This document shows, piece by piece, positions 14,144 through 30,520 of a DNA stretch of 43,589 nt. A model generated the notes under the pieces. The model saw nothing but the letters and a program-made list of their open reading frames with translations. It made no database searches and was not told where the DNA came from. The position numbers and the translations under genes are program-made. The DNA is from Deltaproteobacteria bacterium (GTDB lineage: Bacteria; Bdellovibrionota; UBA1018; UBA923), in assembly GCA_016186905.1 (NCBI GenBank), contig JACPKS010000077.1, forward strand, positions 1-43,589, in the 5' to 3' direction. Position 1 is the first letter of the stretch. Every line of letters begins with the position of its first letter.

Positions 14144-14293
14144 GTGCGGTTAAGCTCCTATAATGACGCGCTGAGTAACATTAATTAGTGCATCTTGTCA
14201 ATACAAATAAAATCAAGAGCATCTCTACGAAATCAATCCTCGCGTTGCACAAATCTTTACTACGGTTGCGTTGCGGGTTGTAAAATGGAGATC

Positions 14294-15538
14294 ATGACGA
14301 CTTCCTGGTCCAAGCATGCCGACATCTCCATTGCGATCCTCGCGGGGGCCTGGATCCCGCTGCGCATCGTTTTTTTCGACGACGCGGCCATCCTCGACCC
14401 GCTCTTCGAGCTTCTTTTCATCGGGCTTTGCACCGTCGTCGCCACGCTGAAAGTCATAAACCTCCCGCGAAAAACAAGCGCGACCATCGCGCGCGCGATC
14501 GCGCTGGAGGTCATCGTGGCGCTTCCTCTGGTCACCATCAGCAAGTCCAGTCTTGGCGCGCCTTCCGAGCTATTTCTCCTGGTGAAAATGATCGCGCTTC
14601 CCCGGCTCCTGCGGATCCGCGACGTTTTTATCTCGATGGATACGCTGTATCCCGTGCTTTCGCGGCTTTTGCCCATCGCGATCTTCACGCCGATGCTGAT
14701 CCACATCCTCTCCTGCGGCTGGATATTCATGGGCAGCGGCACCGCCCCCCACGAAGGAGGACGGCTGACCGAGTACAGCCGGGCCGTCTACTGGACGATC
14801 ACCACCCTGTGCACGGTGGGATACGGCGACATCACGCCGAAAAACTCCGCCCAGATGGGGTACGCCTGCGTCGTCATGATCGTCGGCGTGACGTTTTTCG
14901 GCTACGTCGTCAGCAACGTGGCTTCGCTGCTCGCGCGCCTGGACGCCGCGAAAGAGCACCATTTAGCCACGCTCGACCGCGTAGAGACGTTCATGAGCTA
15001 CAACCGCGTTCCGCACGCGCTGAAGTCGGACGTCCGGGCCTTTTACCGGTATCTCTGGGAGAGCCGCCAGGGATACGACGACCATTCCGTGCTCGAAAGC
15101 CTCCCGCCGAAGCTGCGCTCCGAAATCGCCCTGTCGCTCAACGCCGAGATCATCAACAAGGTTCCGCTCCTGAAGGGTGCGGCGCCTGAGCTTTTGCGCG
15201 ACGTCGTGCTCGAGCTGCAGCCGACCGTCGCCCTGCCCGGCGAAAAAATCTTACGTCTGGGCGAGATCGGCGACGCCATGTATTTCATTCAGCGCGGGGC
15301 CGTCGAGGTCATCTCGAAAACCGGCAAGCGGCTCGCCACGCTCTCGGACGGCGCCTTTTTCGGCGAGGCCGCGCTGCTCACGAGCAACCCGAGGAACGCC
15401 GGCGTCCGGGCGCTCACCTACTGCACGCTCCACATCCTGCGTCGAAGCGGCTTCGAGAAGGTGCTGAACCGGCATCCCGGCTTCCGGGATCACGTGCTCG
15501 AGGTCGCCCGCAACCGGCTGGGCGAAGATCAAGGGTAG
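14294..15538 (+). CDS. cyclic-nucleotide-gated potassium channel
   Basis: A 414-residue channel with a six-helix voltage-sensor-like transmembrane region. The S4-like helix carries few positive charges (PRLLRIRDV, about 103-111), and the K+ selectivity filter is TVGYGD (174-179). After S6 and a C-linker comes a cyclic-nucleotide-binding domain (about 290-405) with a phosphate-binding cassette FFGEAALLTSNPRNAGVRA (355-373) that keeps the Glu and Arg used to hold cAMP/cGMP. It therefore likely conducts K+ across the inner membrane in response to a cyclic nucleotide. ATG 14294 is chosen over TTG 14195 because GGAG lies 5-6 bases upstream and the extra 33 residues are not hydrophobic or conserved-looking. 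Confidence 0.92.
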   Translation: MTTSWSKHADISIAILAGAWIPLRIVFFDDAAILDPLFELLFIGLCTVVATLKVINLPRKTSATIARAIALEVIVALPLVTISKSSLGAPSELFLLVKMIALPRLLRIRDVFISMDTLYPVLSRLLPIAIFTPMLIHILSCGWIFMGSGTAPHEGGRLTEYSRAVYWTITTLCTVGYGDITPKNSAQMGYACVVMIVGVTFFGYVVSNVASLLARLDAAKEHHLATLDRVETFMSYNRVPHALKSDVRAFYRYLWESRQGYDDHSVLESLPPKLRSEIALSLNAEIINKVPLLKGAAPELLRDVVLELQPTVALPGEKILRLGEIGDAMYFIQRGAVEVISKTGKRLATLSDGAFFGEAALLTSNPRNAGVRALTYCTLHILRRSGFEKVLNRHPGFRDHVLEVARNRLGEDQG

Positions 15539-15557
15539 AAATTTCAATTTTCTATCC
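15533..15557. terminator. possible bidirectional terminator hairpin
   Basis: GGGTAGAAA-TTTCAAT-TTTCTATCC forms a 9-base-pair stem with one G-T pair, between two convergent genes (K+ channel and Fur-family regulator). It overlaps both gene ends. The A and T runs in the stem could serve both strands, but no separate T tail follows. Confidence 0.35.
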
Positions 15558-15989
15558 GGCGGAGCGCGGGCACTTCTTGCAGTTGCCGTAAAAAACCACG
15601 GAGAGGTTGGCCTTGTGGAAGCCATGAACCGCGGCGAGCGCGGTCTCGATCCTCCGGAACAAGGCGTCGCCGCCTTTATTGAGCTTCCCGCACGCCTTGC
15701 AGATGAAATAATGGTGCACCTCGCGGTCGAAGATGTATTGGAAGCGCTTCCCGACCCGCGGCAATTTGAGCTCGTGGAGGATCTCCAGCTTCTTGAAGAG
15801 TTCCAGGTTGCGGTAGACGCTGGAGCGATCCACGCCGGGCAGGTGTCTCTCGATGTACGCGTAAATCTCCGGCAGGCTGATCTGCGTGGCTTTGCGGTTG
15901 AGGATGAACTGCAGCAGCAGCCGTCTGGCGGGCGTGATCCGCAATTTCTGATGCCGCAGGATCGCGAGCAGGTCCTTGTGCCGTTTCAT
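15552..15989 (-). CDS. Fur-family metal-dependent transcriptional regulator
   Basis: A 145-residue Fur-family repressor. The winged helix has its recognition helix at DRSSVYRNLELF (54-65). The dimerisation domain holds the HHYFICKACGK motif (His92, His93, Cys97, Cys100) and a second pair, Cys137-x2-Cys140, which together form the structural zinc site of four cysteines. Fur, Zur and PerR cannot be told apart from this sequence. It is divergent from the hydrogenase-like operon that starts 168 bases away, so that operon is a plausible target. I could not find a convincing 7-1-7 Fur box between them. Confidence 0.88.
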   Translation of the reverse strand: MKRHKDLLAILRHQKLRITPARRLLLQFILNRKATQISLPEIYAYIERHLPGVDRSSVYRNLELFKKLEILHELKLPRVGKRFQYIFDREVHHYFICKACGKLNKGGDALFRRIETALAAVHGFHKANLSVVFYGNCKKCPRSAG

Positions 15990-16093: not shown

Positions 16094-16122
16094 TTGCACG
16101 ATGTTGCATTTAAAAATATCCT
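16094..16122 (+). promoter_or_regulatory. weak promoter candidate for the hydrogenase-like operon
   Basis: TTGCAC (16094-16099) and TATCCT (16117-16122) with a 17-base spacer lie 36 bases before the GTG. A short direct repeat TTGCA at 10-base spacing covers the -35 region. It is the only AT-rich stretch in the divergent intergenic space. Match to consensus is modest. Confidence 0.25.
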
Positions 16123-16157
16123 TCCGGATACGCCCGCTGTTTGCGCCGGAGGATCGC

Positions 16158-18155
16158 GTGCCCCTGTTCCTTGCATCTATTTTCGCTTTCATCGCCGCGG
16201 GGATTCTGTCCGCGCTGCCGCGAAAACGCCCGCGGGCAGCGGGTTTGGCAGGCGCGGGGGGCGCGGTGCTCGGCTCGCTCCTGGGAATCGCGAGCGCCGT
16301 CAAAACCCTGGCTTCCGGAGCCGGTGAAACCCTGCATCTGTCCTGGACCATTCCGTACGCGGCGGTTTCGTTTCAGCTCGAACCCCTGTCGTCTTTTTTC
16401 CTGCTTCTGGTCTTCGCCGTTGGGCTCGTGACGGCGATTTACGGTCAGGGCTACCTCCGTCACCACCACCCGGGAGGCGCGGCCCACACCTGGCTTTTCT
16501 TCAACATCATGGTCGCCAGCATCGCCGTGGTGTTCGCGGCCGGCAATGCCATCCTTTTTCTCATGGCCTGGGAGATCATGGCGCTTTCCTCGTTTTTTCT
16601 CGTGATCCTTGAGGGCGAAAAGGAAAGCACGCGGCGCGCCGGCCTGATTTACCTCGTGGTGACGCAGGCTGGAACGGCTTTGCTGCTCGTTTTTTTCATC
16701 CTGCTCGGAAACCACGCCGGTTCGTTCGATTTTTCCCGGCTGGCGTCGGCCGCCTCTCTTCCCATGCCGCTTGCCAACGCTCTTTTCATTCTCGCGCTGG
16801 TCGGCTTCGGCTCCAAGGCGGGTTTCGTGCCGCTTCACGTGTGGCTGCCGGAGGCGCATCCGGCAGCCCCAAGCCACGTTTCCGCCCTGATGTCCGGCAT
16901 CATGATCAAGACCGGCATTTACGGCTTGTTTCGCGCTCTGACGTTTCTGGGACCTCCGCCCTCGTGGTGGGGATGGGCGCTCATCGCCGTCGGCTTCGTC
17001 ACGTCCTGCTGGGCCATCCTTTTCGCGAGCGCCCAGCGCGACCTCAAGCGTCTGCTCGCTTATTCCAGCGTGGAGAACATCGGGATCATCGCCCTTGCCC
17101 TCGGTGTGGCTCTCTTCGGGGAGAGCGCCGGTCTTCCCGTTCTGACCATGCTCGGCGCCACTGCCGCGCTTTTTCACGTCCTGAACCACGCCGCCTACAA
17201 GACGCTCCTGTTTCTCGGGGCCGGTGGTGTTTCCATCGCGGCCGGCACCCTGGATCTGGACCGGCTTGGCGGACTCTTGAAGAAAGCCCCCTGGCTTGGG
17301 GCCGGCTTTCTGGTCGGCGCGCTCGCCATCTGCGGTCTTCCTCCGTTAAACGGTCTCGCAAGCGAGTTTCTCCTGTACCTTGGCGCGCTGCGGGCGGGGA
17401 TCAGCCAGCATGGGTTCGTGCAGCAGGCGCCGCTGGGACTCGCGATCGGCTCACTGGCGATATGCGGAGGCCTTGCGATCGCGTCGTTCAGCAAAGCGTT
17501 CGGCATCGTGTTTCTCGGGACCTGCCGCGGCAACGGCTCAGAACATTGGCATGCTCCGGGCCTCGCCATCCAGGCGCCCGTGGTTGTGCTCGGGTTCGTC
17601 TGCGTCGCACTTGGGCTTCTCGCCCCTTTCGTGGCCTCCGGGATCGCCTCGATCGTCCAGACCCACGGCCCGTTCAAGGGGGCGCTCGCGGCCTTCGATC
17701 CGGCACCGAGCCTTCGTCCGCTTTTTTGGCTCGCGGGGGCCAATGCCGGCGCGCTCATCGCCATCGCGCTCGCCGTCTGGCTTCGCCGGGCCTTGCTGAG
17801 AGGGCGGAACCCGGGGCGCGCGCCCACCTGGGACTGCGGCTATTCTTCCCCCACGCCGCGGATGCAGTATTCCTCCTCGTCGCTGGTTCAGCCCATCGCA
17901 TGGCTGTTCGGCGCGTTTCTCCGCCCGCGCGAGAAAGACCCGCAGGTCGTCGGCTACTTTCCGCATCACGCGGAGCACGCGACCGAGACCCCGGATTTCT
18001 TTCTTGAGCGCGTCTTCAGCCGCGTCTTCACCTCGGTCGACGGAGTGCTTTCGCGGCTCCGCAGGTTCCAGCACGGACGCCTTCAGGCCTATGTTTTCTA
18101 CATCCTCGTCACGCTGGTCGCGCTGCTGCTCTGGCATCTGGAGGTCGTGAGATGA
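16158..18155 (+). CDS. hyfB: Ehr/hydrogenase-4-like membrane subunit B (NuoL/HyfB family)
   Basis: A 665-residue proton-antiporter-type membrane subunit of the HyfB/NuoL family with many transmembrane helices. Conserved features include the charged Glu helix (LMAWEIMALSSFFLV), the TM7-8 lysine region (GFGSKAGFVPLHVWLPEAHPAAPSHVSALMSG) and DLKRLLAYSSVENIG. The length matches HyfB (about 670). GTG 16158 is chosen because GGAGG lies 5-6 bases upstream and the upstream ATG (16101) would add a basic, non-hydrophobic segment. It is the first gene of a six-gene operon and overlaps the next by 4 bases. It should be one of two ion-pumping subunits in this complex. Confidence 0.92.
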   Translation: MPLFLASIFAFIAAGILSALPRKRPRAAGLAGAGGAVLGSLLGIASAVKTLASGAGETLHLSWTIPYAAVSFQLEPLSSFFLLLVFAVGLVTAIYGQGYLRHHHPGGAAHTWLFFNIMVASIAVVFAAGNAILFLMAWEIMALSSFFLVILEGEKESTRRAGLIYLVVTQAGTALLLVFFILLGNHAGSFDFSRLASAASLPMPLANALFILALVGFGSKAGFVPLHVWLPEAHPAAPSHVSALMSGIMIKTGIYGLFRALTFLGPPPSWWGWALIAVGFVTSCWAILFASAQRDLKRLLAYSSVENIGIIALALGVALFGESAGLPVLTMLGATAALFHVLNHAAYKTLLFLGAGGVSIAAGTLDLDRLGGLLKKAPWLGAGFLVGALAICGLPPLNGLASEFLLYLGALRAGISQHGFVQQAPLGLAIGSLAICGGLAIASFSKAFGIVFLGTCRGNGSEHWHAPGLAIQAPVVVLGFVCVALGLLAPFVASGIASIVQTHGPFKGALAAFDPAPSLRPLFWLAGANAGALIAIALAVWLRRALLRGRNPGRAPTWDCGYSSPTPRMQYSSSSLVQPIAWLFGAFLRPREKDPQVVGYFPHHAEHATETPDFFLERVFSRVFTSVDGVLSRLRRFQHGRLQAYVFYILVTLVALLLWHLEVVR

Positions 18156-19069
18156 CCGGAGCGGCGGGAATGACCCAACTCGTTTTCGCGCTTTTCTGCG
18201 CGCCATTCCTGCTTGGCGTGGCCAACCGCGCGAAAGCGCTTTTCGCGGGCAGGGCGGGGCCGCCGCTCTGCCAGGCGTATTTCGACATCTGGCGTCTTTT
18301 TCACAAGAGTGTTGTTTACAGCACCACGACGACGTGGCTTTTCCGGGCGGGTCCCGTGGTCAGCCTGGCCGCGACCTTCGTCGCGCTTTGTCTCGCGCCC
18401 TGCGGAGGAGCGAAGGCCGTATTTTCGTTCGATGGCGATTTCATCGTGATGGTGTACCTGCTTGGCCTCTCTCGCGCGTTCATCGTGCTCGCGGCTCTCG
18501 ACACCGGCTCGAGCTTCGAGGGGATGGGCGCGAGCCGGGAGTTGCAGTTCTCGCTTCTCGCCGAGGTCGGGCTTCTGCTTTGCCTCTTCGCGCTGGCGTG
18601 GAAGACGGGGATGCTTGATGCCTCTTCGATCTGCGGTCAGCTCACGGTCGAGGCATGGAGACAGGAGGCCGGCGTTCTCAGCCTGCTCGCGGCGGCCCTG
18701 CTGCTCGTGCTCCTGGCGGAGAGCTCCCGCATCCCCTTCGACGATCCCAACACGCACCTTGAGCTCACGATGATCCACGAGGTGATGGTGCTCGACCATT
18801 CCGGGCCAGAGCTCGGGATGATCCTTTACGGCGCGTCCCTGAAGATGTGGATCCTCGGGACGTTTCTCGTGCGCCTCGTGTTTCCGCTGCGGACTGGGAA
18901 TTTCGCGGCGGATCTGGCGCTGTTCGGCGGAGCGATGGTCCTGCTCGCCGTCGGCATCGGGATCATCGAGTCGACCATGGCGAGGTTGCGGCTCCTGAAC
19001 GTGCCGAAGCTCCTGCTCGGCGCGGCCGCCCTTCCGTGCCTGGCGTTTCTGCTGAGCGCGGGGGGATGA
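18152..19069 (+). CDS. hyfC: Ehr/hydrogenase-4-like membrane subunit C (NuoH/HyfC family)
   Basis: A 305-residue NuoH/HyfC-type subunit that anchors the peripheral arm to the membrane. Family signatures are present: AGPPLCQAYFDIWRLF near residue 33, GASRELQFSLLAE in the middle, and ESSRIPFDDPNTHLELTMIHE with conserved acidic residues in the loop lining the quinone-like cavity. About eight transmembrane helices. The ATG overlaps the hyfB stop (4 bases), and the next gene starts 5 bases after its stop. Confidence 0.92.
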   Translation: MTGAAGMTQLVFALFCAPFLLGVANRAKALFAGRAGPPLCQAYFDIWRLFHKSVVYSTTTTWLFRAGPVVSLAATFVALCLAPCGGAKAVFSFDGDFIVMVYLLGLSRAFIVLAALDTGSSFEGMGASRELQFSLLAEVGLLLCLFALAWKTGMLDASSICGQLTVEAWRQEAGVLSLLAAALLLVLLAESSRIPFDDPNTHLELTMIHEVMVLDHSGPELGMILYGASLKMWILGTFLVRLVFPLRTGNFAADLALFGGAMVLLAVGIGIIESTMARLRLLNVPKLLLGAAALPCLAFLLSAGG

Positions 19070-19073
19070 GGCG

Positions 19074-19739
19074 ATGGGCATCCGGAACGGGTCGTTCGTG
19101 GATTTTTTGCTCATCGCGCTCATCCTGGGAAACCTCCTGCTCCTCGGCTCGAGCCGCCTGATGTCTTACATCCGGATCTGCGCGGCCCAGGGCCTGCTGG
19201 TCAGCGCCCTCACCTTCATTCTCCATCGCGGCGAAGTGAGCGCCCGAATCGTCGTGCTTGTCGTCGGGAGCGCGGTTCTCAAGGCGGGGCTGTTCCCATG
19301 GCTCCTGATCCGGGCCGTCCGGGTGGCTTACATCAAGAAAGAGATCGAACCCATCGTCGGATACTCGGCCTCGCTCATCTTCGGCGTGCTCATCCTGGCT
19401 TTGTCGCTCTGGCTTTCCGCGCGCCTTCCGATTCACGGCAAGGCGGCCGCCTCGTTCGTCCCGACCGCCGCGTTCTTCACGATCTTCACCGGCTGTTTTC
19501 TCATCGTCAGCCGCACGAAAGCCATCACCCAGGTCATCAGCTACCTGGTTCTCGAAAACGGCATCTACCTGTTCGGGCTTCCCTTCGTGGGCGAGGCCGC
19601 GCTTTTGATCGAGCTCGGAGTGTTCCTGGATCTCACGGTCGGGGTGGCCGTGATGGGGATCATCATCTACCATATCAGCAGGGAATTCGACTCGCTCGAC
19701 GTCAAGCACCTTTCCACGCTCAAGGACTGGGGCTCATGA
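19074..19739 (+). CDS. hyfE: Ehr/hydrogenase-4-like membrane subunit E (HyfE family)
   Basis: A 221-residue polytopic membrane protein with the HyfE pattern: NuoK-like helices in the first half, SAVLKAGLFPWLL, YLVLENGIYLFG with a buried Glu, and ELGVFLDLTVGVAVMG near the end. It is thought to help translocate ions next to the antiporter subunits. It overlaps hyfF by 4 bases (ATGA), showing tight translational coupling. Confidence 0.9.
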   Translation: MGIRNGSFVDFLLIALILGNLLLLGSSRLMSYIRICAAQGLLVSALTFILHRGEVSARIVVLVVGSAVLKAGLFPWLLIRAVRVAYIKKEIEPIVGYSASLIFGVLILALSLWLSARLPIHGKAAASFVPTAAFFTIFTGCFLIVSRTKAITQVISYLVLENGIYLFGLPFVGEAALLIELGVFLDLTVGVAVMGIIIYHISREFDSLDVKHLSTLKDWGS

Positions 19740-21262
19740 TCCAGGCTGGCGATTCCCTCGCGCTCTGGCTTCAGCTTCTTTTCCCCGCGGCCTGCGGCGT
19801 TGCCGTGTTCGCGATCCCGCGTCGGCGGCTGGGCACGGCGCTGCTCGCGGTCTCTTCCGCGCTTCACCTCTGCATCACGGCGTTTTTCTGGTTCGTGCCC
19901 AGGCGGGAGCTCGCGCTCGAGGGCTGGCTTGCGCTTGACGAGATCGGCAGGCTGTTCCTCGGAATCGTCAGCGTCCTGTTCGCCGCAGCGGCCGCCTACG
20001 TCGTCGGCTATCTTTCGCACCACCGGCTGCTGGCCCTGCAGAACGCCCAAGGGGATAAGGCCGCCGCGGCTTCCGCGGCCGAGCGGTCCGAGCGCATTTT
20101 CATCTCCTCGCTGCTGTTTTTTCTTTCCACCATGACTCTCGTGACCTTCTGCCAGCATTTCGAGCTGCTGTGGGTCGCGATCGAGGCGACGACGCTTGCC
20201 AGCGCGCCGCTCGTATATTTTCACCGTGGGCCGCACGCGCTGGAGGCCACCTGGAAATATCTCGTCATCTGTTCGTTCGGCATCGCGCTCGCGCTCCTCG
20301 GAAACTTCTTGTTGTCGATCGCGGCTCCGGCGCACGCGGGCGGGGCGCTGACCGTGAGCAGTCTTCTCTCGCGGGCCGCGCTCCTTGACCGGGCCTGGCT
20401 CAAGGCCGCCTTCATCTTCCTGTTCGTCGGCTATGGAACGAAGATGGGGCTCGCGCCGCTTCACACGTGGCTCCCCGACGCGCACAGCGAAGCGCCGAGC
20501 GCCGTGTCCTCGCTGCTTTCCGGGGCGCTTCTCAGCTGCGCGTTCGTCGGGATTTTGCGGGCGTTCCACGTCTGCGTGGCGGCTGGGCTTGGAAGCTTCG
20601 CGCAGGGGATTCTCGTGACGTTCGGGCTGATCTCGATGGGGTTCGCGGCGGTCTTCATCATCCGGCAGCAGGACTACAAGCGCATGCTGGCTTACTCGAG
20701 CGTGGAACACATGGGCGTGCTCTCCTTGAGCGTGGGGCTGGGCGGCGCCGCCGTCTTCGCGGGGATGCTCCACGCCATCGGCCACGCGCTCATCAAGGCC
20801 ATGCTTTTCCTGGTGGCCGGCAACATCCTGATCGCGTACCACACCAAATCCGCCAAAGCGGTGCGGGGGGTTCTCAGGGCGCTGCCGGCGTCAGGGGTGC
20901 TCTGGTTTCTCGGGCTCTTCGCGATCACGGGGTTCCCGCCTTTCGGGCTCTTCACGAGCGAATTCCTGATCCTGCGTTTCGCGCTGGAGCGGGGGCGCTA
21001 CGGCGTGGCGATCCCGTATCTGCTTTTCCTCTCGCTCATTTTCATCGGGATGGCCTCGGTGTCCCTGCCCATGCTGCTGGGGGAGCCGCAGGGCGCGGCC
21101 AAAACGCACGTCCCGCGGGAGTGGCGGTGGTCGATCCTCCCGCCGGTGGCGCTTGCGTTTCTGGCCCTCGCGCTGGGGCCTCACATCCCGCCGTTTCTCA
21201 AGGCCCGGATCGATGCCATCGCGGTGGAACTCAACACAGGCGTTCCCGGAGGCGCGAAATGA
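19736..21262 (+). CDS. hyfF: Ehr/hydrogenase-4-like membrane subunit F (NuoN/HyfF family)
   Basis: A 508-residue second antiporter-type subunit of the proton-conducting family. Recognisable segments are the FELLWVAIEATTLASAPLVYF helix with its key Glu, GYGTKMGLAPLHTWLPDAHSEAPSAVSSLLSG with the conserved Lys, and YKRMLAYSSVEHMG. The ATG at 19736 overlaps the hyfE stop; the open frame extends upstream to 19298, but only as a shadow of hyfE. It ends with a 4-base overlap into the large-subunit gene. Confidence 0.9.
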   Translation: MIQAGDSLALWLQLLFPAACGVAVFAIPRRRLGTALLAVSSALHLCITAFFWFVPRRELALEGWLALDEIGRLFLGIVSVLFAAAAAYVVGYLSHHRLLALQNAQGDKAAAASAAERSERIFISSLLFFLSTMTLVTFCQHFELLWVAIEATTLASAPLVYFHRGPHALEATWKYLVICSFGIALALLGNFLLSIAAPAHAGGALTVSSLLSRAALLDRAWLKAAFIFLFVGYGTKMGLAPLHTWLPDAHSEAPSAVSSLLSGALLSCAFVGILRAFHVCVAAGLGSFAQGILVTFGLISMGFAAVFIIRQQDYKRMLAYSSVEHMGVLSLSVGLGGAAVFAGMLHAIGHALIKAMLFLVAGNILIAYHTKSAKAVRGVLRALPASGVLWFLGLFAITGFPPFGLFTSEFLILRFALERGRYGVAIPYLLFLSLIFIGMASVSLPMLLGEPQGAAKTHVPREWRWSILPPVALAFLALALGPHIPPFLKARIDAIAVELNTGVPGGAK

Positions 21263-22800
21263 TGGCGAACGAGCTCCAAAAAATCGGAAACGCCGAGCCC
21301 GTCGCCCTCCTCAAGATCCCCGTTCTCGCGATCTCGGAATGGCGCGAGGCGGTGCTGCAGGAGGTGAGGGCAGGGGCCAGGATCTGCGCTTTGTTCGCGC
21401 TTCCGCCGCGGGACTCTCCCGTGGATCCGGCTGACGGATTGGCCCGTTTCGGCGCCCTGAAATCCCGGCTCTACGCCGTGCTCGGTCACGATCGCGAGGC
21501 GGCGCTCGCTGTTTGCGCTACCGATGTCGAAAAAGCCTATCCGAGCCTCAGCCAGGTGATCCCACAGGCGCACTGGTTTGAGAGGGAGATCGCCGAGACC
21601 TGCGGCGTGATTCCGCAGGGGCATCCGCGCTTGAAACCCATCCGCGCTCCGCTGTCGGATGCCCCGTTTTTCGAGGTCGCCGGCGATTCCATCCACGAGG
21701 TCGCGGTGGGGCCCGTTCACGCCGGCGTGATCGAGCCCGGGCACTTCCGCTTTCAGTGCCACGGCGAGCAGGTTTTCCATCTGGAGATCGCGCTCGGTTA
21801 CCAGCACCGAGGCGTTGAGCGCGCGCTCATCGGTGGTCCGGGCTTGCGCACGTTGCATTACATGGAAACCTTGTCCGGCGATACCAGCATCGGCCATGCG
21901 CTGGCCTACGTTCAGGCGATGGAGCCGCTCGTCGGCATCGAGCCGCCACGGCGGGCCGCGGCCATCCGCGGCATCGCGCTGGAGCTGGAGCGGCTGGCCA
22001 ACCACGTCGGCGATCTCGGGGCGCTGGCTGCCGACGTGGGGTACCTTCCCACGGCGTCGTTTTGCGGCGGATTGCGCGGGGATTTCCTCAACCTGACGGC
22101 GCGGATTTGCGGAAGCCGCCTGGGGCGAAAGCTGCTGCGCCCGGGCGGTGTTTGCTTCGACCTTCCCGAAAACGCGGCGGTTGAATTCACGCGGTCGCTC
22201 GAAGGCGCGCTCAGGCACGTGAACGAGGCGGCCGAGCTTCTCTGGAGCCGGTCTTCGGTGCTGGGCCGCTTCGAGCATGTCGGCGTGGTATCCGCGGAAA
22301 CGTGCACGGATCTGGGGCTTGTGGGGCCCGTCGCGCGCGCCTGCGGCGTGAAAAACGACGTCCGGGCGGACTTCCCGTCCGGGATCTACCGGCATGCGAA
22401 AGTCGCGGTGGCGACGCACGCCGGCGGCGACGTGTTCTCGAGAGCGCGGGTCAGGTGGCTCGAAATCCAGGAGTCCGGACGGCTCATCCGTTCGCTGCTG
22501 TCGGAGCTTGCGGAGGGCCTCGCGGAGGGTCCCATTTTGCACGAGGCGTTCCGCGCCGGCCGCGCAGCACCCGTGCTTGCGCCGGACCGGCTTGTCGTCT
22601 CCCTGGTGGAGGGCTGGCGCGGGGAGATCTGCCACGTTCTCATCACCGACAGGAACGGCCGGATCGCGCGCTACAAGGTGATCGATCCGTCGTTTCACAA
22701 CTGGAGCGGGCTTGAGATGGCGCTTCGCAATCAGCAAATCTCGGATTTCCCGCTTTGCAACAAGAGTTTCAATCTGTCCTATTGCGGGCACGATCTGTGA
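21259..22800 (+). CDS. NuoC-NuoD-like large subunit without [NiFe] cysteines (Ehr-type)
   Basis: A 513-residue fusion of a NuoC-like domain (about 1-150) and a large-subunit domain related to HycE/HyfG and NuoD. GYQHRGVER and LELERLANHVGDLG are typical. In hydrogenases the metal site needs RxCGxC and DPCxxC. Here the corresponding places read SGDTSIGHA and DPSFHNW, so all four cysteine ligands are missing. The second resembles NuoD of complex I. The protein should therefore not bind NiFe or make H2. This matches the energy-converting hydrogenase related (Ehr) complexes, whose reaction is still unknown. ATG 21259 is chosen for GGAGG 6 bases upstream. Confidence 0.9.
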   Translation: MMANELQKIGNAEPVALLKIPVLAISEWREAVLQEVRAGARICALFALPPRDSPVDPADGLARFGALKSRLYAVLGHDREAALAVCATDVEKAYPSLSQVIPQAHWFEREIAETCGVIPQGHPRLKPIRAPLSDAPFFEVAGDSIHEVAVGPVHAGVIEPGHFRFQCHGEQVFHLEIALGYQHRGVERALIGGPGLRTLHYMETLSGDTSIGHALAYVQAMEPLVGIEPPRRAAAIRGIALELERLANHVGDLGALAADVGYLPTASFCGGLRGDFLNLTARICGSRLGRKLLRPGGVCFDLPENAAVEFTRSLEGALRHVNEAAELLWSRSSVLGRFEHVGVVSAETCTDLGLVGPVARACGVKNDVRADFPSGIYRHAKVAVATHAGGDVFSRARVRWLEIQESGRLIRSLLSELAEGLAEGPILHEAFRAGRAAPVLAPDRLVVSLVEGWRGEICHVLITDRNGRIARYKVIDPSFHNWSGLEMALRNQQISDFPLCNKSFNLSYCGHDL

Positions 22801-22825
22801 GCGGCGGTTTCATGGTGGAGGAGGG

Positions 22826-23605
22826 ATGCTAAAGGAGCTGTTGGCGCGACTGCATCAGGGGCATCGGACGATCCCGTTTCCCAGGGAGGAACCGGTTCTC
22901 CCGGAGCGCTACCGCGGCCTTCCCGCGATCTCCGCCGCCAATTGCCGGGACGGCTGCAGGGAATGCGAAAAGGCCTGCCCCACCGAGGCGATCACGTTTG
23001 CCGGTGGCGGAGACCTCCGCCTCGACCTTGGACGATGCCTGTTTTGCTCCGCCTGCGAGGACGCCTGTCCCACAGGCGCCATCCGCTTCACGCGCGATTA
23101 CCGCATGGTCACGCGGGAGCGCGCGGCACTCCTGCTCGGCGACGCGAAGACCCTCGAGCTGGCGCGCGCGCTCGAGGAGCGGATGCTTCGCGTCTTCGGC
23201 CGCTCGCTCAAGCTCAGGCAGGTGAGCGCCGGCGGCTGCAACGGCTGCGAGGCGGAAGTCAGCGTGCTCAACACCGTGGTTTTCGATCTCGGCCGTTTCG
23301 GGGTTCAGTTCGTGGCTTCGCCCCGGCACGCCGACGGCCTGCTCATCACCGGACCCGTCACGAAGAACATGAGACTCGCCTTGCGGAAAACCTACGATGC
23401 GGTGCCTGCCCCGAAGTTCGTCATCGCCGTCGGGGCGTGCGCGATCTCGGGTGGCCCCTACGCCGGGCACCAGGAGGCGTGCGGAGGCGCGGAAAGCGTC
23501 GTGCCCGTCGATCTTTTCATCCCGGGCTGCCCGCCCCATCCCGTCACGACGCTGGACGGCTTACTGCGGCTCCTGGGGCGACGGGGCCGGACAGTCATTC
23601 GTTGA
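22826..23605 (+). CDS. ferredoxin-NuoB fusion, small subunit of the Ehr-type complex
   Basis: A 259-residue fusion of a two-cluster ferredoxin (NuoI/HyfH-like) and a NuoB/HyfI small subunit. Cluster ligands are all visible: Cys40, 44, 47, 51 and Cys71, 74, 77, 81 for two [4Fe-4S] clusters, then Cys138, Cys141, Cys205 and Cys235 (GGCNGC, VGACA, PGCPP) for the N2-type cluster next to the large subunit. In most relatives these are separate genes. The first cluster has an extended spacing, C-x3-C-x2-C-x3-C. The ATG at 22826 follows GGAGGAGGG. It is the last gene of the operon. Intact clusters beside a large subunit without NiFe imply electron transfer to something other than protons. Confidence 0.9.
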   Translation: MLKELLARLHQGHRTIPFPREEPVLPERYRGLPAISAANCRDGCRECEKACPTEAITFAGGGDLRLDLGRCLFCSACEDACPTGAIRFTRDYRMVTRERAALLLGDAKTLELARALEERMLRVFGRSLKLRQVSAGGCNGCEAEVSVLNTVVFDLGRFGVQFVASPRHADGLLITGPVTKNMRLALRKTYDAVPAPKFVIAVGACAISGGPYAGHQEACGGAESVVPVDLFIPGCPPHPVTTLDGLLRLLGRRGRTVIR

Positions 23606-23821: not shown

Positions 23822-23858
23822 TCATACATGACTTAGGCTCTCGGAGGCTTTGGGGCCT

Positions 23859-25349
23859 ATGTTTTTCCCACTTTTCAAAGAGCTGCCGATCTCATTTTTT
23901 CGTCCTTTGAGCGGGAAGCTTGCGCCGATCTATTGGGCGGCCATTCACACCTTGTACAACCTGGATTTCGAAGGAGAGCCTTTCGAGATCACCCAGGACG
24001 TGGCGATTGAGCAAACGGCGCTTTTGCTTGAGCAGACTCCCGAGTTCAATGCTTTTCCCGAGAGGCTCCGCGAGGAGTTGGGGCAGGACGTCGAGGAAGG
24101 AGGGCCGGGCCCCGAGGCGGGCGCGGATCCCGGAGCGGAGGTGGGCGAGGAGCGCGCCGCACGAGCTCTCGCACGCCAGCTTCTCAAACGCCTCGAACGC
24201 TGCGGATGGTTCGACTACGAGTATCGGGAGTCGCGCAAGGGTTACGTGCTCAACTTCCGGGATTACGCCGCGCGGATCATCCACACGCTCACCCAGGTCG
24301 CTCAACAGGAGCAGCCCGTCTTCGAAGGACTCGCCCATTCCATCAAAAGCGCGCTTAGCCAGACCGAAATCGATGAAAAGCCGGGTGTTGCCCTTTATAA
24401 CGCGCAGAAATCCACCCGGGATCTCGTGCGCGAGATCAAGATCCTCTCGCGAAACATCCATCGCTACCCCGAACGGGCGCTCAAGGAGGCTTCGACCGCC
24501 AAAGCCTTGCTCGAGCTGCAACTGGATATTTATCAAAAAAAGGTCGTCGACTCGAGCTACCACCGTTTCAAGACAACCGACAACATCTTCAAGTACCGAA
24601 GCTTCATCCTCGCTCAGCTCTCCAAGCTCGAGGACGATCCCGTGCTTTCGGCATCCGCGACTCAATGGATCTCGAAGAACCAAGCCCTGGGATACGAAGA
24701 CGCCGATGCGCGTTTCGATGAATGGCGGGGGCTGATCCGCTCGCAGATGGCCACCATCCATGTTCTGACGGACGACCTGGACCGGAAAAACGCGCGCTAC
24801 ACCGCGACCACGCTTCAGAAGATCAGTTACCTGCTCAACCAGGAGCGCGATCTGCAGGGAAAGCTTGTCAAATATCTCAAAGCCGTCGCGGAAATGGAGG
24901 ACACTCGTGCTTGGGCGCTGGATGCGGGCCTTCCCTGCTTCGCCGTGAGCCACTTCGATGAGGGATCCCTTTACGTCCGGCCCAAGGACCGTGCGCCGCT
25001 CGAGCTGGCGGAGATACCGCTCGGCGAGGCTTTGGATGACGAAAGGAAACGCGAACTGATTCGAAGCGCGCGCACGCTGGTTGGCGGCCAGTACTCGAGC
25101 GCCAGGGTTTACGGCATCGCACTGGAGATGCTCCGGGAGCGGGGCTTCGTCGCCGTGAGCGAGTTCAAGCTCGAGAGAACCGAGGACCTGACGCGATTGG
25201 TCTTTCTCTCTTATCACGGCCGGGATCGCCGCGCTCCGTATGAGCTGCGGCTGCCCGCCTCGTGGAAGCAAACGGATCTTCGGATCGGGCGTTTCAAGGT
25301 GCGCCCTGGAGAGTTCCACCTAAAAGAAATCCAAGGAGTTGACTCATGA
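23859..25349 (+). CDS. jetA: Wadjet defence protein JetA (kleisin-like, DUF5716-like)
   Basis: A 496-residue protein opening with LFKELPISFFRPLSGKLAPIYW, a pattern I associate with JetA proteins of the DUF5716 type. It is mostly helical, with an acidic Gly/Pro/Glu linker at about residues 78-95 and a winged-helix-like C-terminus. In Wadjet, JetA is the MukF-like kleisin that links the JetC heads and carries JetB. ATG 23859 is used; GGAGG lies 11 bases upstream, and TTG 23850 is the alternative. It is the first of four genes with overlapping ends, in the order A-B-C-D. The DUF5716 resemblance and DUF4194 partner suggest a type III-like system, which is tentative. Confidence 0.85.
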   Translation: MFFPLFKELPISFFRPLSGKLAPIYWAAIHTLYNLDFEGEPFEITQDVAIEQTALLLEQTPEFNAFPERLREELGQDVEEGGPGPEAGADPGAEVGEERAARALARQLLKRLERCGWFDYEYRESRKGYVLNFRDYAARIIHTLTQVAQQEQPVFEGLAHSIKSALSQTEIDEKPGVALYNAQKSTRDLVREIKILSRNIHRYPERALKEASTAKALLELQLDIYQKKVVDSSYHRFKTTDNIFKYRSFILAQLSKLEDDPVLSASATQWISKNQALGYEDADARFDEWRGLIRSQMATIHVLTDDLDRKNARYTATTLQKISYLLNQERDLQGKLVKYLKAVAEMEDTRAWALDAGLPCFAVSHFDEGSLYVRPKDRAPLELAEIPLGEALDDERKRELIRSARTLVGGQYSSARVYGIALEMLRERGFVAVSEFKLERTEDLTRLVFLSYHGRDRRAPYELRLPASWKQTDLRIGRFKVRPGEFHLKEIQGVDS

Positions 25350-26041
25350 GTGACGCAAGAGCCGATCTTGCCCCGGAAGTGTTCCTGGCCGAGTTCCCGC
25401 GCCTCGACGATCGTGGCCGCCGCCTCTTCGCGGAGGTTATCCAGGCGCTTCAACTCCGTTGCTATGTCCTGCGCGGTGGTGCGCTTCGCGTGGATCCCGG
25501 GTACAGGTTCATCGAGAAGCATGAGGAGCTCGTGAACGCTTATCTTTCGCTTGGCGGCTGGCGGCTTCACCTGGACCGGGAGCGAGGCGTAGCACGCCTC
25601 TACCATCCGGAATCCTCCGGTCGAGCCCGGTTCAACAAGGTCGAGACCACGTTGATCCTCGCGCTGAGGATCTTTTATCACGAGCAGAAGCAGATCGTCA
25701 GCGAGAGCATCGAGACCGTCGTCTCGGTCGGGGCATTGCGCGAGAAGTTGCACTCCCTGCTGCCCGCGCAAGCGGTTCGTCCGTTTTTGAGCCGCAAGAC
25801 GTTGGGCAGCGTGTTTCGGCGCCTCGAGAAGTTCGGCATCGTCTCGTTCGTGGGTTCCTCCCTTTTGATCAACGACGAGACCCGGCTTCGGATCGAACCC
25901 GTGCTGGAGCACCTGGTGTCTTCGCAGTCGGCCGATGAGATCGGGCAAAGGCTCAAGGAACTCTATGAAGGCACGGCCGGCGCCGAGGTTGGCGAGGCCG
26001 GTGGCGGCGACGAAGCCTTGGAAGCGGAGATCATCCAATGA
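25346..26041 (+). CDS. jetB: Wadjet defence protein JetB (MukE-like, DUF4194)
   Basis: A 231-residue DUF4194 protein, the MukE-like subunit of Wadjet. It has two winged-helix-type regions (LVNAYLSLGGWRLHLD and RKTLGSVFRRLEKFGIVSF) and the ALRIFYHEQK segment in the middle. JetB binds the kleisin JetA and helps the complex grip DNA. Its last 20 residues are Gly/Glu rich and look like a flexible tail. The ATG overlaps the jetA stop by 4 bases, and its own stop overlaps jetC by 4 bases. Confidence 0.88.
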   Translation: MSDARADLAPEVFLAEFPRLDDRGRRLFAEVIQALQLRCYVLRGGALRVDPGYRFIEKHEELVNAYLSLGGWRLHLDRERGVARLYHPESSGRARFNKVETTLILALRIFYHEQKQIVSESIETVVSVGALREKLHSLLPAQAVRPFLSRKTLGSVFRRLEKFGIVSFVGSSLLINDETRLRIEPVLEHLVSSQSADEIGQRLKELYEGTAGAEVGEAGGGDEALEAEIIQ

Positions 26042-29000
26042 AAAAGCTGACGCGTATCCGTTTGGTGAACTGGTACCACATCGAGGACGAGACGATGCCC
26101 GTGGAGGGCTCGGTCCTGTTTATGGGGGACAATGGCTCCGGCAAGTCGACGATCCTCGATGCCGTGCAGTTCGCGCTCGTGGCGGATCTGTCGCAGGTGC
26201 GGTTCAATCAGGCCGCCAACGAGAACGCCGCGCGCTCCCTGCAGGGATATACACGCTGGATGACCAACTCCGGCGGAAGCAAGGAGACCCATCAGTACAA
26301 CCGCGGGGATTGCACGAGCTACGTCCTTCTGGAGTTCCTGGAGAAAGGCCCGGCTGGAAATTCGGTCTTCACCATCGGCGCGGTGATCGACAGTTTCAAG
26401 GACGGACGCGACCCGCGCCGCCTGCACTTCGCCGCCCACGCAAGTGCCATCGCCGACATCCCGGTATTCCGCGAAGGGGCCAGGGTGCCGATGACTTCAG
26501 CCGAGTTTCGCCGCCTCATGGCCACACGCAAAGGATTTTTCGGTTCACACGAGCCGGGCGCGTTCCGGGACGACCTGCTTACCCGGCTGGGCAAGCTTTC
26601 CCCGGATTTCACCAAGGTCCTGGTCAAAGCCCAGGCATTCAAGCCGCTGGGGCAGGTCCACCAGTTCGTCATGGATTTCCTGCTCGACGCGAAACCGCTG
26701 GAAACGCAGAATCTTCAAAACAACCTCGCCCATTACAAGGCCCTTGAACAGAAGGCGAACGAGGCGGAGCGTCGGGTCACCCGGCTCGAGGAAATCCGGG
26801 GCAAGAGTGAGGATTTGGCCCGGGTCCGCGAGGAATCGCGTCAGTGCCGTTATCTGGAGCTGCGTGGGCGCGCTGGCGTCCAGGAAGCGCTCGTCGCCAA
26901 GCACGAAAAGGATCTCGGGGTGGCGGAAGGCCTCCAGGAGCGCTTCCGAGCGGAGATCCAGAAACAGGCGCTCTCCCTGGACGCATGCGAGCGGGAGATC
27001 GGGTCCGTTTACCGGTCGCTTTCGCGGAATTCCGCTTATTTGGAAAGAGAGCGGGTCCGGTCCGATCTTTCCGTGCTCAAAAAGCAGCTCGTGGAAGCCT
27101 CCTCCGCGATCGCGGCCTGCGAGTCCTTGGAGCGTGAGCTTCAGGCGATCGCCCAGGAGCTTCGTCCCGTTCTGGAAGAGGAGAAGATCAGCGGCCTGAA
27201 TTGGGAAGAGATCGCCTACCGCATGCGCGCCGCGAGGGATCGCGCGCAGGCCGAGCTGGATCGCCTGAAAACCGAAGGGGAAGCTCTTCAAGCCAGGTTA
27301 AGCGACCTTAAAAATGGCATTCGGCCCTATCCTAAAGAAACGAAAGCGCTCAAGGAGTTGATCGAGGATCAGCTCGGAAAGCCAGCTCCGCTTCTTTGCG
27401 AGCTCCTGGAAGTGGATGACGAGCGCTGGCAAAGCGCGGTGGAAGGGTACCTCAACACGCGGCGCTTCGACATCGTCCCGGAACCCGAGCTTTTCCGGAA
27501 AGCGCTTTCACTCTATGAAAAAATGAAGGTTCAGCTTCAGATCCACGGCGCCGGCCTTGTGGATTCCGAGAAAGCGCTCGGATCGCGCGCACATGCCAGA
27601 AAAGGCTCTTTGGCGGCGGTGGTATCCAGCCCGAATCATCACGCGAAGGCTTACGCCGACTTCCTGATGGGCGACGTCATGCGCTGCGAATCCGAGAAAG
27701 AGCTGCGGCAGCATTCACGCGCGATCACGCCGACCTGCATGGTATACCAGAACCACGCGGCCCGGCAGACCCCTTTTCATGTCTATGAGGCCTGGCACAT
27801 CGGCGCCCGGGGGCATGCGAGGCTCAAGGAACGCACGGAGCAGGAGATCACGGCCGCATTCGAGGCATTTAAGCTCGCCGCAGCCGCTGTGGCGCGATGG
27901 CAGCGCTGTACTGAGCTTTCGGCCAAAGCGGCGCAATCGGCTTCGATGGTGGCTGGCATTCCCGCGCTGCGGACCCGGCTAGCGGAGCTCGAAGCGGATC
28001 ACCTTCGCTTGGCGAAGCATTTCGAAAGCATCGATGCCACGGAGATCGCAGTACTGGAGACCCGGCTCGCCGATCTGTCCCGCGAAAAACAGGCGGCTCA
28101 AGCGGCTCTGGATGCCGCTAACCGGGAAATCGGCCAGGCGCAGGAGCGAGCCAAGCAAGCCGAGGAGCTCCTGCAAGAGGCGAAACGGGCGCGCGACCTT
28201 GAGTTCGCGCAGATCGCCGCCGAGATCGCGGGTGAGTTGATGCAAACCTACGTCGCGGAGCTCGAAGGGCGCTACCAAGAGCAGCTCAAGGACGGGCGCG
28301 CTCCCGAAAAGATCGTCGAAGTCTATGCATCGCAGCGCAAGAATCGGGAAACGCAGGCCACCAATCTTCTTCAGGACCTGACACTCCAGCGCGCCGAGTA
28401 CAACAACGTCTTTGGGTTCTCAGCACCCGTCTTGGGCGAGGAGTTTGCCCCTTATCTCGAGGAGCTCGAGGCTTGGAAGAACAGCCATCTCCCGGAGTAT
28501 CGCCGGAAGATCGAAAGCGCCAAGGAGAGCGCGCTCCAGCAACTGATGGAGGATATCGTGCACAAGCTGCGCGAAAACCTGGATCTGATCCCGGATCAGT
28601 TCGATCAGATCAATCGCACTTTGCGCGGCTTCCATTTCGGCTATGACCAGTATCAGTTCACTTACCGGATCAAGCGCGAGTTCGAGTCTTTCGAAAAGCT
28701 GATCCGCGAGGCGGCACAGTACGAGCGCCAGCCGCTTTTCGAAACGAACTGGCGCGAGCGTTTCCGGGACGGCGGTGCGCTCGAGGCGCTCTTCACGAGC
28801 CTCGTGAGCGGATCGAGCTCGCAGGTGGAAGAGGAGCTCAGGCAGTACTCCGATTACCGCGAGTACTACGAATACGACCTCAAGATCCTGCATTCCGACG
28901 GCACGAGCTCGATGTTCAGCCAGGTCAACCGCTGGAAGTCGGGCGGAGAGACGCAGGCGCCATATTACATCGCGGTCCTGGCGTCGCTCTATCGCCTTTA

Positions 29001-29319
29001 TCGCCTGACTCCCGAGCAGGTCGCCAAGCAGCGAGGAACCATCGGATTGGTGATCCTTGACGAGGCCTTCAACAAGATGGACGAAGATCGCCTCAAGGCG
29101 ACGTTGGCGTTCACGCGCAAGCTCGGGCTTCAGCTGATCATGGCGACTCCCAAGGAACGCGCCGAGTTCATCATCCCGTACGTGGAGTCCTGTTTCATCG
29201 TGGCGAAGGACCCGCGCACGGGCCGCGCCTTCGTGGCGGATTTCCATCAGGAGTTCGAGCATGAGAATGATTACGCCGCGCCAAAGGCGGCTGCTCAACC
29301 TGCTGCTCAACCGGTTTGA
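26038..29319 (+). CDS. jetC: Wadjet defence protein JetC (SMC/MukB-like ATPase)
   Basis: A 1093-residue SMC-type ATPase. Walker A is GDNGSGKST (30-38). Two long coiled-coil arms flank a hinge around residues 440-580. The ABC signature is SGGETQAPYY at about 967, and Walker B is LVILDEAFNKMDED at about 1002-1015. In Wadjet, JetC dimers extrude loops on small circular DNA such as plasmids, and JetD then cuts it. All ATPase motifs look intact. The end overlaps jetD by 59 bases in another frame; the final Ala/Gln-rich residues (AAPKAAAQPAAQPV) lie in that overlap and look like an extension. Confidence 0.92.
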   Translation: MKKLTRIRLVNWYHIEDETMPVEGSVLFMGDNGSGKSTILDAVQFALVADLSQVRFNQAANENAARSLQGYTRWMTNSGGSKETHQYNRGDCTSYVLLEFLEKGPAGNSVFTIGAVIDSFKDGRDPRRLHFAAHASAIADIPVFREGARVPMTSAEFRRLMATRKGFFGSHEPGAFRDDLLTRLGKLSPDFTKVLVKAQAFKPLGQVHQFVMDFLLDAKPLETQNLQNNLAHYKALEQKANEAERRVTRLEEIRGKSEDLARVREESRQCRYLELRGRAGVQEALVAKHEKDLGVAEGLQERFRAEIQKQALSLDACEREIGSVYRSLSRNSAYLERERVRSDLSVLKKQLVEASSAIAACESLERELQAIAQELRPVLEEEKISGLNWEEIAYRMRAARDRAQAELDRLKTEGEALQARLSDLKNGIRPYPKETKALKELIEDQLGKPAPLLCELLEVDDERWQSAVEGYLNTRRFDIVPEPELFRKALSLYEKMKVQLQIHGAGLVDSEKALGSRAHARKGSLAAVVSSPNHHAKAYADFLMGDVMRCESEKELRQHSRAITPTCMVYQNHAARQTPFHVYEAWHIGARGHARLKERTEQEITAAFEAFKLAAAAVARWQRCTELSAKAAQSASMVAGIPALRTRLAELEADHLRLAKHFESIDATEIAVLETRLADLSREKQAAQAALDAANREIGQAQERAKQAEELLQEAKRARDLEFAQIAAEIAGELMQTYVAELEGRYQEQLKDGRAPEKIVEVYASQRKNRETQATNLLQDLTLQRAEYNNVFGFSAPVLGEEFAPYLEELEAWKNSHLPEYRRKIESAKESALQQLMEDIVHKLRENLDLIPDQFDQINRTLRGFHFGYDQYQFTYRIKREFESFEKLIREAAQYERQPLFETNWRERFRDGGALEALFTSLVSGSSSQVEEELRQYSDYREYYEYDLKILHSDGTSSMFSQVNRWKSGGETQAPYYIAVLASLYRLYRLTPEQVAKQRGTIGLVILDEAFNKMDEDRLKATLAFTRKLGLQLIMATPKERAEFIIPYVESCFIVAKDPRTGRAFVADFHQEFEHENDYAAPKAAAQPAAQPV

Positions 29320-30520
29320 GGCAGCCTCCTCGGGCAGAAGACCGTCGATCACGATGACGGCGGAGCGCTTTCCGGAGTACTTCGCCGACTCCGAGCCCGT
29401 GCGCGTCCGGCAGTGGGAAGAGGAGATCCGTGCCGTTGAGGCGCTGGGCTGGATCAGTCTCGACTGGGGGCGGGGCGCTGATTCGCACCGGCTGATTCGC
29501 ACCAGGCTCAACGTCGATCAAGCGACAGAGATCGCAGGGGCTTTGGGCCGAATGACTGCCGACGAGTTCGCCCGTTCTCTGGATGCGGCGATCGCGAAGT
29601 GTTTGCAGGGGGGCGCCCCATCCTGGCTTCGTGCTTTCCTGGGCACGGAGCGCGAGAGATGGAAGGTGAGTCGTCCACCCTCGGCTGAGACAAGGAAAGA
29701 GCAGCTCGATGAGTACCGCTTGATCTACTTGGCCGTAGAGCGGCTCGCGGCCAATCGCGAACGCCTCACCTGGCGTCAGTTCTCGGTCGCGCATTTCAGC
29801 GACAGCAAGAGGCTCCTTTCCCTGAAACCCAGAATCTGCCGGATTCTCGCGGCGCATGCTTTGGGTCAGCATCAGACCGAAGATCCGGACGAGGCCGCGG
29901 TCTTGTCGCATTTCGGGATCGATTTGAAAGCAGGAATCGTTTTGATGAGCGGACCGGCGCGCATCGAGTTCCCGAAAAGCGCGCTGAAGATTGATGGGGA
30001 TCAATGGAAGCCCTTCCTGGCGGTACCCGAGGAGATGCTGGCGGAATTCGTTCTGGACGTTTCGGACGCTCGCGCGATCCTGACGATCGAGAACGAGGAG
30101 TCTTTCCACGCGTTCGCGCGCTCAGGAGCGAAGCCGGACTGGCTGACGCTCTATTTGGGCGGTTTCCCTTCGAAGCAGAAGCTGCGATTGCTGCGGGCGC
30201 TTCGCGAAAGGGGATTGCCGTTCCATCATTGGGGCGACCTGGACTGCGGCGGGATCGATATTTTTCTCTATCTGGAGCGCGAGCTCGGGATCGCGATCGC
30301 GCCGCTCGGAATGGAGCCCGAGAGGCTGCGCGAGCTCGATCGCAGCTGCCGAGAGCTGGCGGGCGGTGAAATTGCCCGGCTCTTGAGGATTCGAGGCGAG
30401 CTTTCTCCGGAGCATGCTTTGTGCTCTCTCATCGACGAGATGATGAGGTCGGGCAAGAAGCTCGAACAGGAGGCGCTACTGGACCCCTTCAGGCCGCCAG
30501 AGCGCTCGACCGGACTCTGA
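29261..30520 (+). CDS. jetD: Wadjet defence nuclease JetD (TOPRIM-like)
   Basis: A 419-residue protein with the JetD architecture: an N-terminal winged-helix region (DUF3322-like, about 1-190) and a C-terminal TOPRIM-like nuclease (DUF2220-like). TOPRIM acidic residues are visible in LTIENEES (about 272-279) and GDLDCGGIDIF (about 325-335). In characterised Wadjet this subunit cleaves plasmid DNA after JetABC loop extrusion. ATG 29261 has AGGAG 7 bases upstream and lies inside jetC, giving strong coupling. The catalytic motif looks complete, so the system is probably functional. Confidence 0.88.
   Translation: MRMITPRQRRLLNLLLNRFEAASSGRRPSITMTAERFPEYFADSEPVRVRQWEEEIRAVEALGWISLDWGRGADSHRLIRTRLNVDQATEIAGALGRMTADEFARSLDAAIAKCLQGGAPSWLRAFLGTERERWKVSRPPSAETRKEQLDEYRLIYLAVERLAANRERLTWRQFSVAHFSDSKRLLSLKPRICRILAAHALGQHQTEDPDEAAVLSHFGIDLKAGIVLMSGPARIEFPKSALKIDGDQWKPFLAVPEEMLAEFVLDVSDARAILTIENEESFHAFARSGAKPDWLTLYLGGFPSKQKLRLLRALRERGLPFHHWGDLDCGGIDIFLYLERELGIAIAPLGMEPERLRELDRSCRELAGGEIARLLRIRGELSPEHALCSLIDEMMRSGKKLEQEALLDPFRPPERSTGL

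Follow-up and report, generated by a model that had tools for sequence, protein, structure and literature searches.

A Six-Gene Ehr Operon Without [NiFe] Ligands in a Bdellovibrionota Draft Genome and Its Place in a Widespread Family

Introduction

Between the [NiFe] hydrogenases and complex I, a gap has long persisted around the reaction carried out by energy-converting hydrogenase-related (Ehr) complexes. Six-gene Ehr operons have been published under the names ehrABCDLS (PMC6688271) and hyfBCEFGI (PMC5596200), and Ehr genes have been reported without assigned function in Nitrospira, Sulfobacillus, bacteria of the candidate phyla radiation, and Cyanobacteria-sibling lineages. Here, we describe an Ehr operon in Deltaproteobacteria bacterium (Bdellovibrionota; assembly GCA_016186905.1), located on contig JACPKS010000077.1. 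The 43,589 nucleotides of this contig that were analyzed are referred to as the window. A preliminary description based on the letters of the window had proposed that the genes at 21259–23605 encode the subunits of a hydrogenase-like complex that lacks [NiFe] ligands, retains its iron-sulfur chain, and fits Ehr complexes. The fit is supported by motif loss, gene content, and phylogeny, and the complex is a correctly named, ordinary member of a widespread and known family. Its main appeal is the open question of the family rather than this copy, and it provides a clean case in a probably respiring host that lacks hydrogenase, maturation, and recognized formate dehydrogenase genes, such that two favored substrates can be set aside there.

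Results

Loss of the [NiFe] Site in the Large Subunit

Six genes that overlap or follow one another at short distances make up the operon on the forward strand (16101–23605), in the order HyfB, HyfC, HyfE, HyfF, NuoC-NuoD large subunit, and ferredoxin-NuoB small subunit. The boundaries previously assigned to the last two genes are correct (21259–22800 and 22826–23605), as are the NuoC-NuoD and NuoI-NuoB fusions. The large subunit HyfG/EhrL (21259..22800, +; 513 amino acids) starts within the end of HyfF and carries PF00329 and PF00346. Among solved structures, its best relative is HycE (E = 6.8e-43), and its AlphaFold model is also closest to HycE, with a template modeling score of 0.83. Confidence in this model is low for the nine C-terminal residues, such that it does not reveal the geometry of the pocket. 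When aligned with HycE, none of the four [NiFe] cysteines is left, and the ligand positions are now occupied by Ser, Thr, Ser, and Gly. At the former L1 site (21865..21897, +; residues 203–213), the sequence reads ETLSGDTSIGH versus DRVCGICGFAH in HycE, with Cys replaced by Ser and Thr. At the former L2 site (22765..22797, +; residues 503–513), which forms the extreme C-terminus without a propeptide, the last 11 residues read SFNLSYCGHDL versus SLDPCYSCTDR, with Cys replaced by Ser and Gly. The Cys within NLSYCG sits one position away from the former ligand position. The earlier claim that all four cysteines are replaced holds for their absence and for the L1 motif, but L2 had been assigned to DPSFHNW. 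That segment pairs with ATYANW of HycE and APSFVNL of complex I, well ahead of the true L2 site. As positive controls, seven distinct group 4 hydrogenases (E. coli, Proteus, Azospirillum, Butyrivibrio, MbhL, and loci L030 and L122 from the bacterial order of the host) showed intact CGxC and DPCxxC motifs in the same alignment.

The former ligand positions are occupied or neighbored by new Ehr-invariant residues, namely G207-D208, which is nearly invariant across Ehr, and S507-Y508-x-G510-x-D512. Each of the 86 Ehr large subunits examined terminates precisely with the L2 motif. A C-terminal extension is present in the E. coli and L030 hydrogenases and absent from those of Azospirillum and Butyrivibrio, such that its absence supports an Ehr assignment without being diagnostic. 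In HycE, protons are carried to the active site by Glu193 of the beta1-beta2 loop, His284, Arg395, Glu437, and Arg478 (PMC9474812). The alignment indicates that the equivalents of all five are kept in the large subunit, and the canopy residue Asp529 of HycE is Asn in most Ehr.

Iron-Sulfur Chain and Membrane Arm

EhrS (22826..23605, +; 259 amino acids) is a NuoI-like ferredoxin domain with two clusters (Fer4 x2) fused to a NuoB-like small subunit with a proximal cluster (PF01058). All twelve cluster cysteines are present (C40, 44, 47, 51; 71, 74, 77, 81; 138, 141, 205, 235), as had been stated, and they are nearly invariant across about 80 relatives. The CxxxCxxC spacing of the first cluster was also found in 68 of the 77 relatives with an identified motif. 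HycG and MbhJ are the best solved relatives of the small subunit, and its predicted model matches these two proteins and NuoB of complex I. The CxxC of the proximal cluster and its spacing align with HycG and MbhJ without gaps, and all four cysteines are conserved.

The membrane arm is encoded by the first four genes. HyfB/EhrA (16101..18155, +; PF00361), for which the top NCBIfam match is hydrogenase 4 subunit B, is a NuoL-type antiporter-like protein with a C-terminal extension, and its true start may fall slightly 3' of the ATG at 16101. Its pump residues E158, K239, K270, and E422 are kept in 64–75 of 75 family members. HyfC/EhrB (18167..19069, +, approximate start; PF00146) is a NuoH-like membrane anchor in which D192, D193, H197, E199, H204, E205, and D210 are invariant (69/69). 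HyfE/EhrC (19074..19739, +) is a small NuoK-like membrane subunit that matches PF00420 and NF008556 (hydrogenase 4 membrane subunit). HyfF/EhrD (19733..21262, +, approximate start; PF00361; top NCBIfam match hydrogenase 4 subunit F) is the second antiporter-like subunit. Its E151, K237, and K355 are invariant across the family, and its lysine position in the eighth transmembrane helix is polar (mostly N/S/T) family-wide. The antiporter-like and NuoH-like membrane subunits therefore share one operon with the peripheral arm, an arrangement by which Ehr complexes are recognized.

Relatives and Phylogeny

When 84,980 species genomes were scanned, 114 relatives emerged, and the comparison covered the best 80 loci. 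Judging from the record names in the tree, these relatives represent about 19 phyla. The Rv0082–Rv0087 cluster of Mycobacterium tuberculosis may be a further relative. On contigs of sufficient length, the genes nearly always follow the order HyfB-C-E-F-large-small, with a second HyfB in some cases, and the ferredoxin domain is part of the small subunit. The L1 motif of the family is mostly [AS]GD[ST], and the C-terminus is SFNLSYxGxDL. Conservation of the pocket motifs and gene order across about 80 loci indicates that the pattern is not due to chance. This comparison provides a signature for the family (GD[ST] at L1 and NLSYxGxDL at the C-terminus), as well as pocket residues for mutagenesis.

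A phylogeny of the large subunits, which the preliminary description had named as a check of the Ehr assignment, placed the large subunit of the window inside a single Ehr group and outside complex I and group 4. In this quick tree, with support from the Shimodaira–Hasegawa-like approximate likelihood ratio test (SH-aLRT) only and with an Ehr reference composed of the ligand-less copies found here (none from Ehr publications), a branch with 100% SH-aLRT support parts all Ehr from group 4 [NiFe] hydrogenases and complex I. The Ehr group itself splits into a ferredoxin-fused branch, in which the window is next to genome G038, and the unfused copies of Rhizobium, Cupriavidus, Burkholderia, Methylocalor, and Rhodococcus. 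The ferredoxin-NuoB fusion had been singled out as notable; instead, it is the rule and a hallmark of this Ehr branch, as is the six-gene layout, for which published examples already exist. A literature search, mostly outside subscription journals, brought up no publication that deals with this fusion in Ehr.

Among 57 genomes related to the host, only four have clear Ehr matches. Moreover, two related genomes (G001 and G032) hold another Ehr lineage that is nearer to Variovorax. This patchiness, together with the different lineage in G001 and G032, suggests horizontal exchange.

Regarding genomic context, a search for recurring neighbors among the relatives found no enzyme next to Ehr operons that hints at the substrate. 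A regulator with HTH_17 and phosphotransferase system EIIA (PtsN-like) domains lies directly upstream of HyfB in 30 of the 50 loci with enough upstream sequence (including L033, L034, L035, L037, and L057), and is absent from the window. This PtsN-like regulator may tie Ehr expression to phosphotransferase signaling.

Host Genome

The draft genome of the host (2.86 Mb, 91.6% complete) was searched by protein family. The preliminary description had left room for another large subunit with [NiFe] cysteines in the same complex and had pointed to hydrogenase maturation genes. Both were sought in this draft genome, and no match to PF00374, HypD, or HycI was found. The same searches do match in control genomes and some related genomes, which indicates that they work. 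Three further NuoD-like genes are complex I-like; contig 26 carries two of them and contig 110 the third. Two 2-oxoacid:ferredoxin oxidoreductases are encoded, one on contig 1 and the other on contig 110, shortly 5' of the NuoD-like gene. In the stretch of contig 110 that was read (L023 5195–18036 of the host genome, G000), the oxidoreductase genes are followed by a complex I-like cluster, and none of the genes for the NADH module (NuoE, F, G) was detected. This cluster is a candidate ferredoxin-fed complex I. The host also encodes a haem-copper oxidase. Matches to the molybdopterin family PF00384 are limited to NuoG and a single weak one, probably an alternative complex III subunit, which is encoded on the same contig as the haem-copper oxidase. 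No formate dehydrogenase was recognized in the draft genome with PF00384, at the locus, or recurring beside the relatives. Taken together, the host appears to respire and to have sources of ferredoxin, without hydrogenase or a recognized formate dehydrogenase.

Three other identities were considered for the complex. Identity as a group 4 [NiFe] hydrogenase is contradicted by the absence of the ligand motifs RxCGxC and DPCxxC from the large subunit and of HypD and HycI from the 91.6% complete genome. Identity as complex I is contradicted by the alignment, in which the quinone ligands His38 and Tyr87 of Nqo4 are not present in the large subunit, and by the lack of a tandem CC at cluster N2. For the membrane-bound sulfane reductase (MBS), as defined by its published features (PMC7684303), identity is contradicted by the ungapped alignment with HycG and MbhJ and by the loss of every [NiFe] cysteine.

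Cluster Loss Elsewhere in the Family

Redox centers are lost stepwise within Ehr. All copies have lost the [NiFe] site, some lineages also lack the ferredoxin clusters, others are without the ferredoxin domain, and in Allomeiothermus silvanus even the proximal cluster is gone. Pump and proton-path residues stay in place. Ferredoxin cysteines are lost in the small subunits of Gemmatimonadota and Eisenbacteria (L100, L103, and L110), and many are lost in extra Verrucomicrobia copies, namely the first small subunits of loci L068 and L077. The ferredoxin domain is missing in the Rhizobium, Rhodococcus, Methylocalor, and Burkholderia types. In the small subunits encoded on plasmid pMESIL01 of A. 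silvanus (L112 10278–11150 and L160 8311–9183), T, D, E, and S stand where the proximal cluster would have its four cysteines, and half of the ferredoxin cysteines are gone. Every pump and proton-path residue checked is kept in this Ehr. The two copies count as one case because they lie within a 15-kb duplication with 99.9% identity. Among the matches listed by plasmid searches, close ones came only from Allomeiothermus itself; of the other matches, only a divergent Caballeronia copy was read, and it retains the proximal-cluster cysteines.

There is a small chance that Ehr complexes translocate ions with no strict requirement for electrons to pass along the iron-sulfur chain. If true, the copy in the window would represent the redox-complete end of a stepwise series of redox-center loss. 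The graded cluster loss could be used to test whether pumping needs electrons, and Allomeiothermus, which lies outside the window, is the most interesting lead in this regard.

Flanking Genes

A Fur-family regulator (15552..15989, −; PF01475) is divergently transcribed from the operon and is a possible candidate for its regulator. In the comparison of neighbors, this gene is not kept beside the operon in relatives. It adjoins a gene for a cyclic-nucleotide-binding ion-channel-like protein (14195–15538). On the 3' side of the operon, the same strand encodes JetA, JetB, JetC, and JetD, which form a complete Wadjet system of type I (23850–30520).

Discussion

Proposed Function

With some reservation, we favor the interpretation that the Ehr complex is a ferredoxin-fed ion pump with a proton-coupled reaction in the former [NiFe] pocket. 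The anatomy, the ligand loss, and the conservation of clusters, pump residues, and proton path were read from the sequence, and from these we infer the donor, the direction of electron flow, and the coupling. An ion-translocating membrane arm (HyfB, C, E, and F) would lie beneath a peripheral arm of two fused subunits. The electron source would most likely be a soluble ferredoxin, reduced by the 2-oxoacid:ferredoxin oxidoreductases of the host. Electrons would enter at the N-terminal ferredoxin domain and reach the former [NiFe] pocket through two [4Fe-4S] clusters and the hydrogenase-type proximal cluster. This pocket, rebuilt from the conserved residues G207-D208-T209 and S507-Y508-x-G510-x-D512, retains Glu159, a proton donor of the hydrogenase type, and the canopy residue Arg454, and it may host a proton-coupled reaction without [NiFe]. 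In this manner, the redox reaction would be coupled to ion translocation, with the drop in energy powering ion movement via HyfC and both antiporter-like subunits. H2 would not be handled by the complex. As a guess that we hold only tentatively, the partner may be a quinone that reaches the pocket via the chamber at the interface of HyfC and the large subunit.

Several points weigh against this interpretation. To our knowledge, the substrate has never been measured for any Ehr. Because H38 and Y87 of Nqo4 are absent, a quinone is no more than the default choice for a host that respires. In addition, Ehr complexes that lack the ferredoxin clusters, the ferredoxin domain, or the proximal cluster while keeping an intact membrane arm do not fit a strict need for electrons delivered by the iron-sulfur chain. 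Finally, the complex I-like cluster on contig 110 could already be available to the host for ferredoxin oxidation.

Alternative Explanations

The graded loss of redox centers in several Ehr lineages, with pump residues intact, would also be expected if the complex were an ion transporter, for example in pH homeostasis as suggested for the Methylacidiphilum Ehr (PMC6688271), and if its redox arm were vestigial, structural, or regulatory. This explanation is unlikely, given that the cluster cysteines are strongly conserved in the window and in almost every relative from its branch, a pattern that would be difficult to account for if no electrons were transferred, and that Allomeiothermus is a single species. 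Decay of the operon into a non-functional state might account for its patchy presence among related genomes, but six intact, closely spaced reading frames that keep the family-invariant residues make it very improbable. Even less credible is a working [NiFe] hydrogenase that uses another large subunit encoded elsewhere. Family resemblance is all that speaks for it, together with the incompleteness of the genome, and it is already largely refuted by the lack of PF00374, HypD, and HycI matches in the host when the controls do match, and by a large subunit of its own that is intact and conserved.

Two further models concern the substrate. A formate-linked complex (FDH-Ehr), in which a formate dehydrogenase supplies electrons to the small subunit, has been proposed for Riflemargulisbacteria and Saganbacteria (PMC6349859), and Ehr proteins of Geobacter are more abundant on formate (PMC7894505). 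Alternatively, an exposed proximal cluster may reduce polysulfide or another disulfide in the empty [NiFe] pocket, in the manner of MBS, which is also derived from a group 4 hydrogenase, has lost [NiFe] ligands, and is fed by ferredoxin (PMC7684303). The proximal motif of MBS is three residues shorter, with three cysteines that bind the cluster (PMC7684303), whereas the window keeps four in the spacing of HycG and MbhJ. MBS also keeps two [NiFe] cysteines (MbsL C85 and C385), whereas the large subunit of the window keeps none, and the haem-copper oxidase indicates that the host is probably not a sulfur-respiring anaerobe. For FDH-Ehr, PF00384 finds only NuoG and the weak match on the oxidase contig, and a formate dehydrogenase is neither at the locus nor recurrent beside relatives. 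The lack of a recognized formate dehydrogenase and the hydrogenase-type proximal cluster argue against the formate-linked and MBS-like models, both of which we regard as highly unlikely here.

Comparison With Known Systems

Formate hydrogenlyase and hydrogenase-4 of E. coli (group 4a) share with the complex of the window the fold, the NuoCD fusion, the CxxC of the proximal cluster, the proton-donor Glu, and the canopy Arg. Unlike these enzymes, the window has no [NiFe] cysteines, C-terminal propeptide, or formate dehydrogenase subunit, and no maturation genes were found in the host. Complex I (NuoCD, NuoB, and NuoI) belongs to the same superfamily, has no [NiFe] site, and has a large subunit that ends at the same point. 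It differs in its quinone ligands H38/Y87 and NADH module, which the window lacks, in having CC rather than CxxC at the proximal cluster, and in its separate branch in the tree. MBS of Pyrococcus shares a hydrogenase origin and the loss of the [NiFe] site, as well as the ferredoxin input and ion-pumping arm proposed here for the window (PMC7684303). In contrast to MBS, the window has a four-cysteine proximal cluster in hydrogenase spacing and zero [NiFe] cysteines. The closest systems are the published Ehr of Geobacter, Methylacidiphilum, Nitrospira, and Sulfobacillus, which have six or seven genes and Hyf-like membrane subunits (PMC6688271, PMC5596200, PMC7894505, PMC4378227). Their large subunit likewise lacks [NiFe] ligands, their small subunit is of the NuoB type, and no substantial difference was found. 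Within this family, the copy in the window belongs to the Ehr branch that carries a two-cluster ferredoxin domain on the small subunit.

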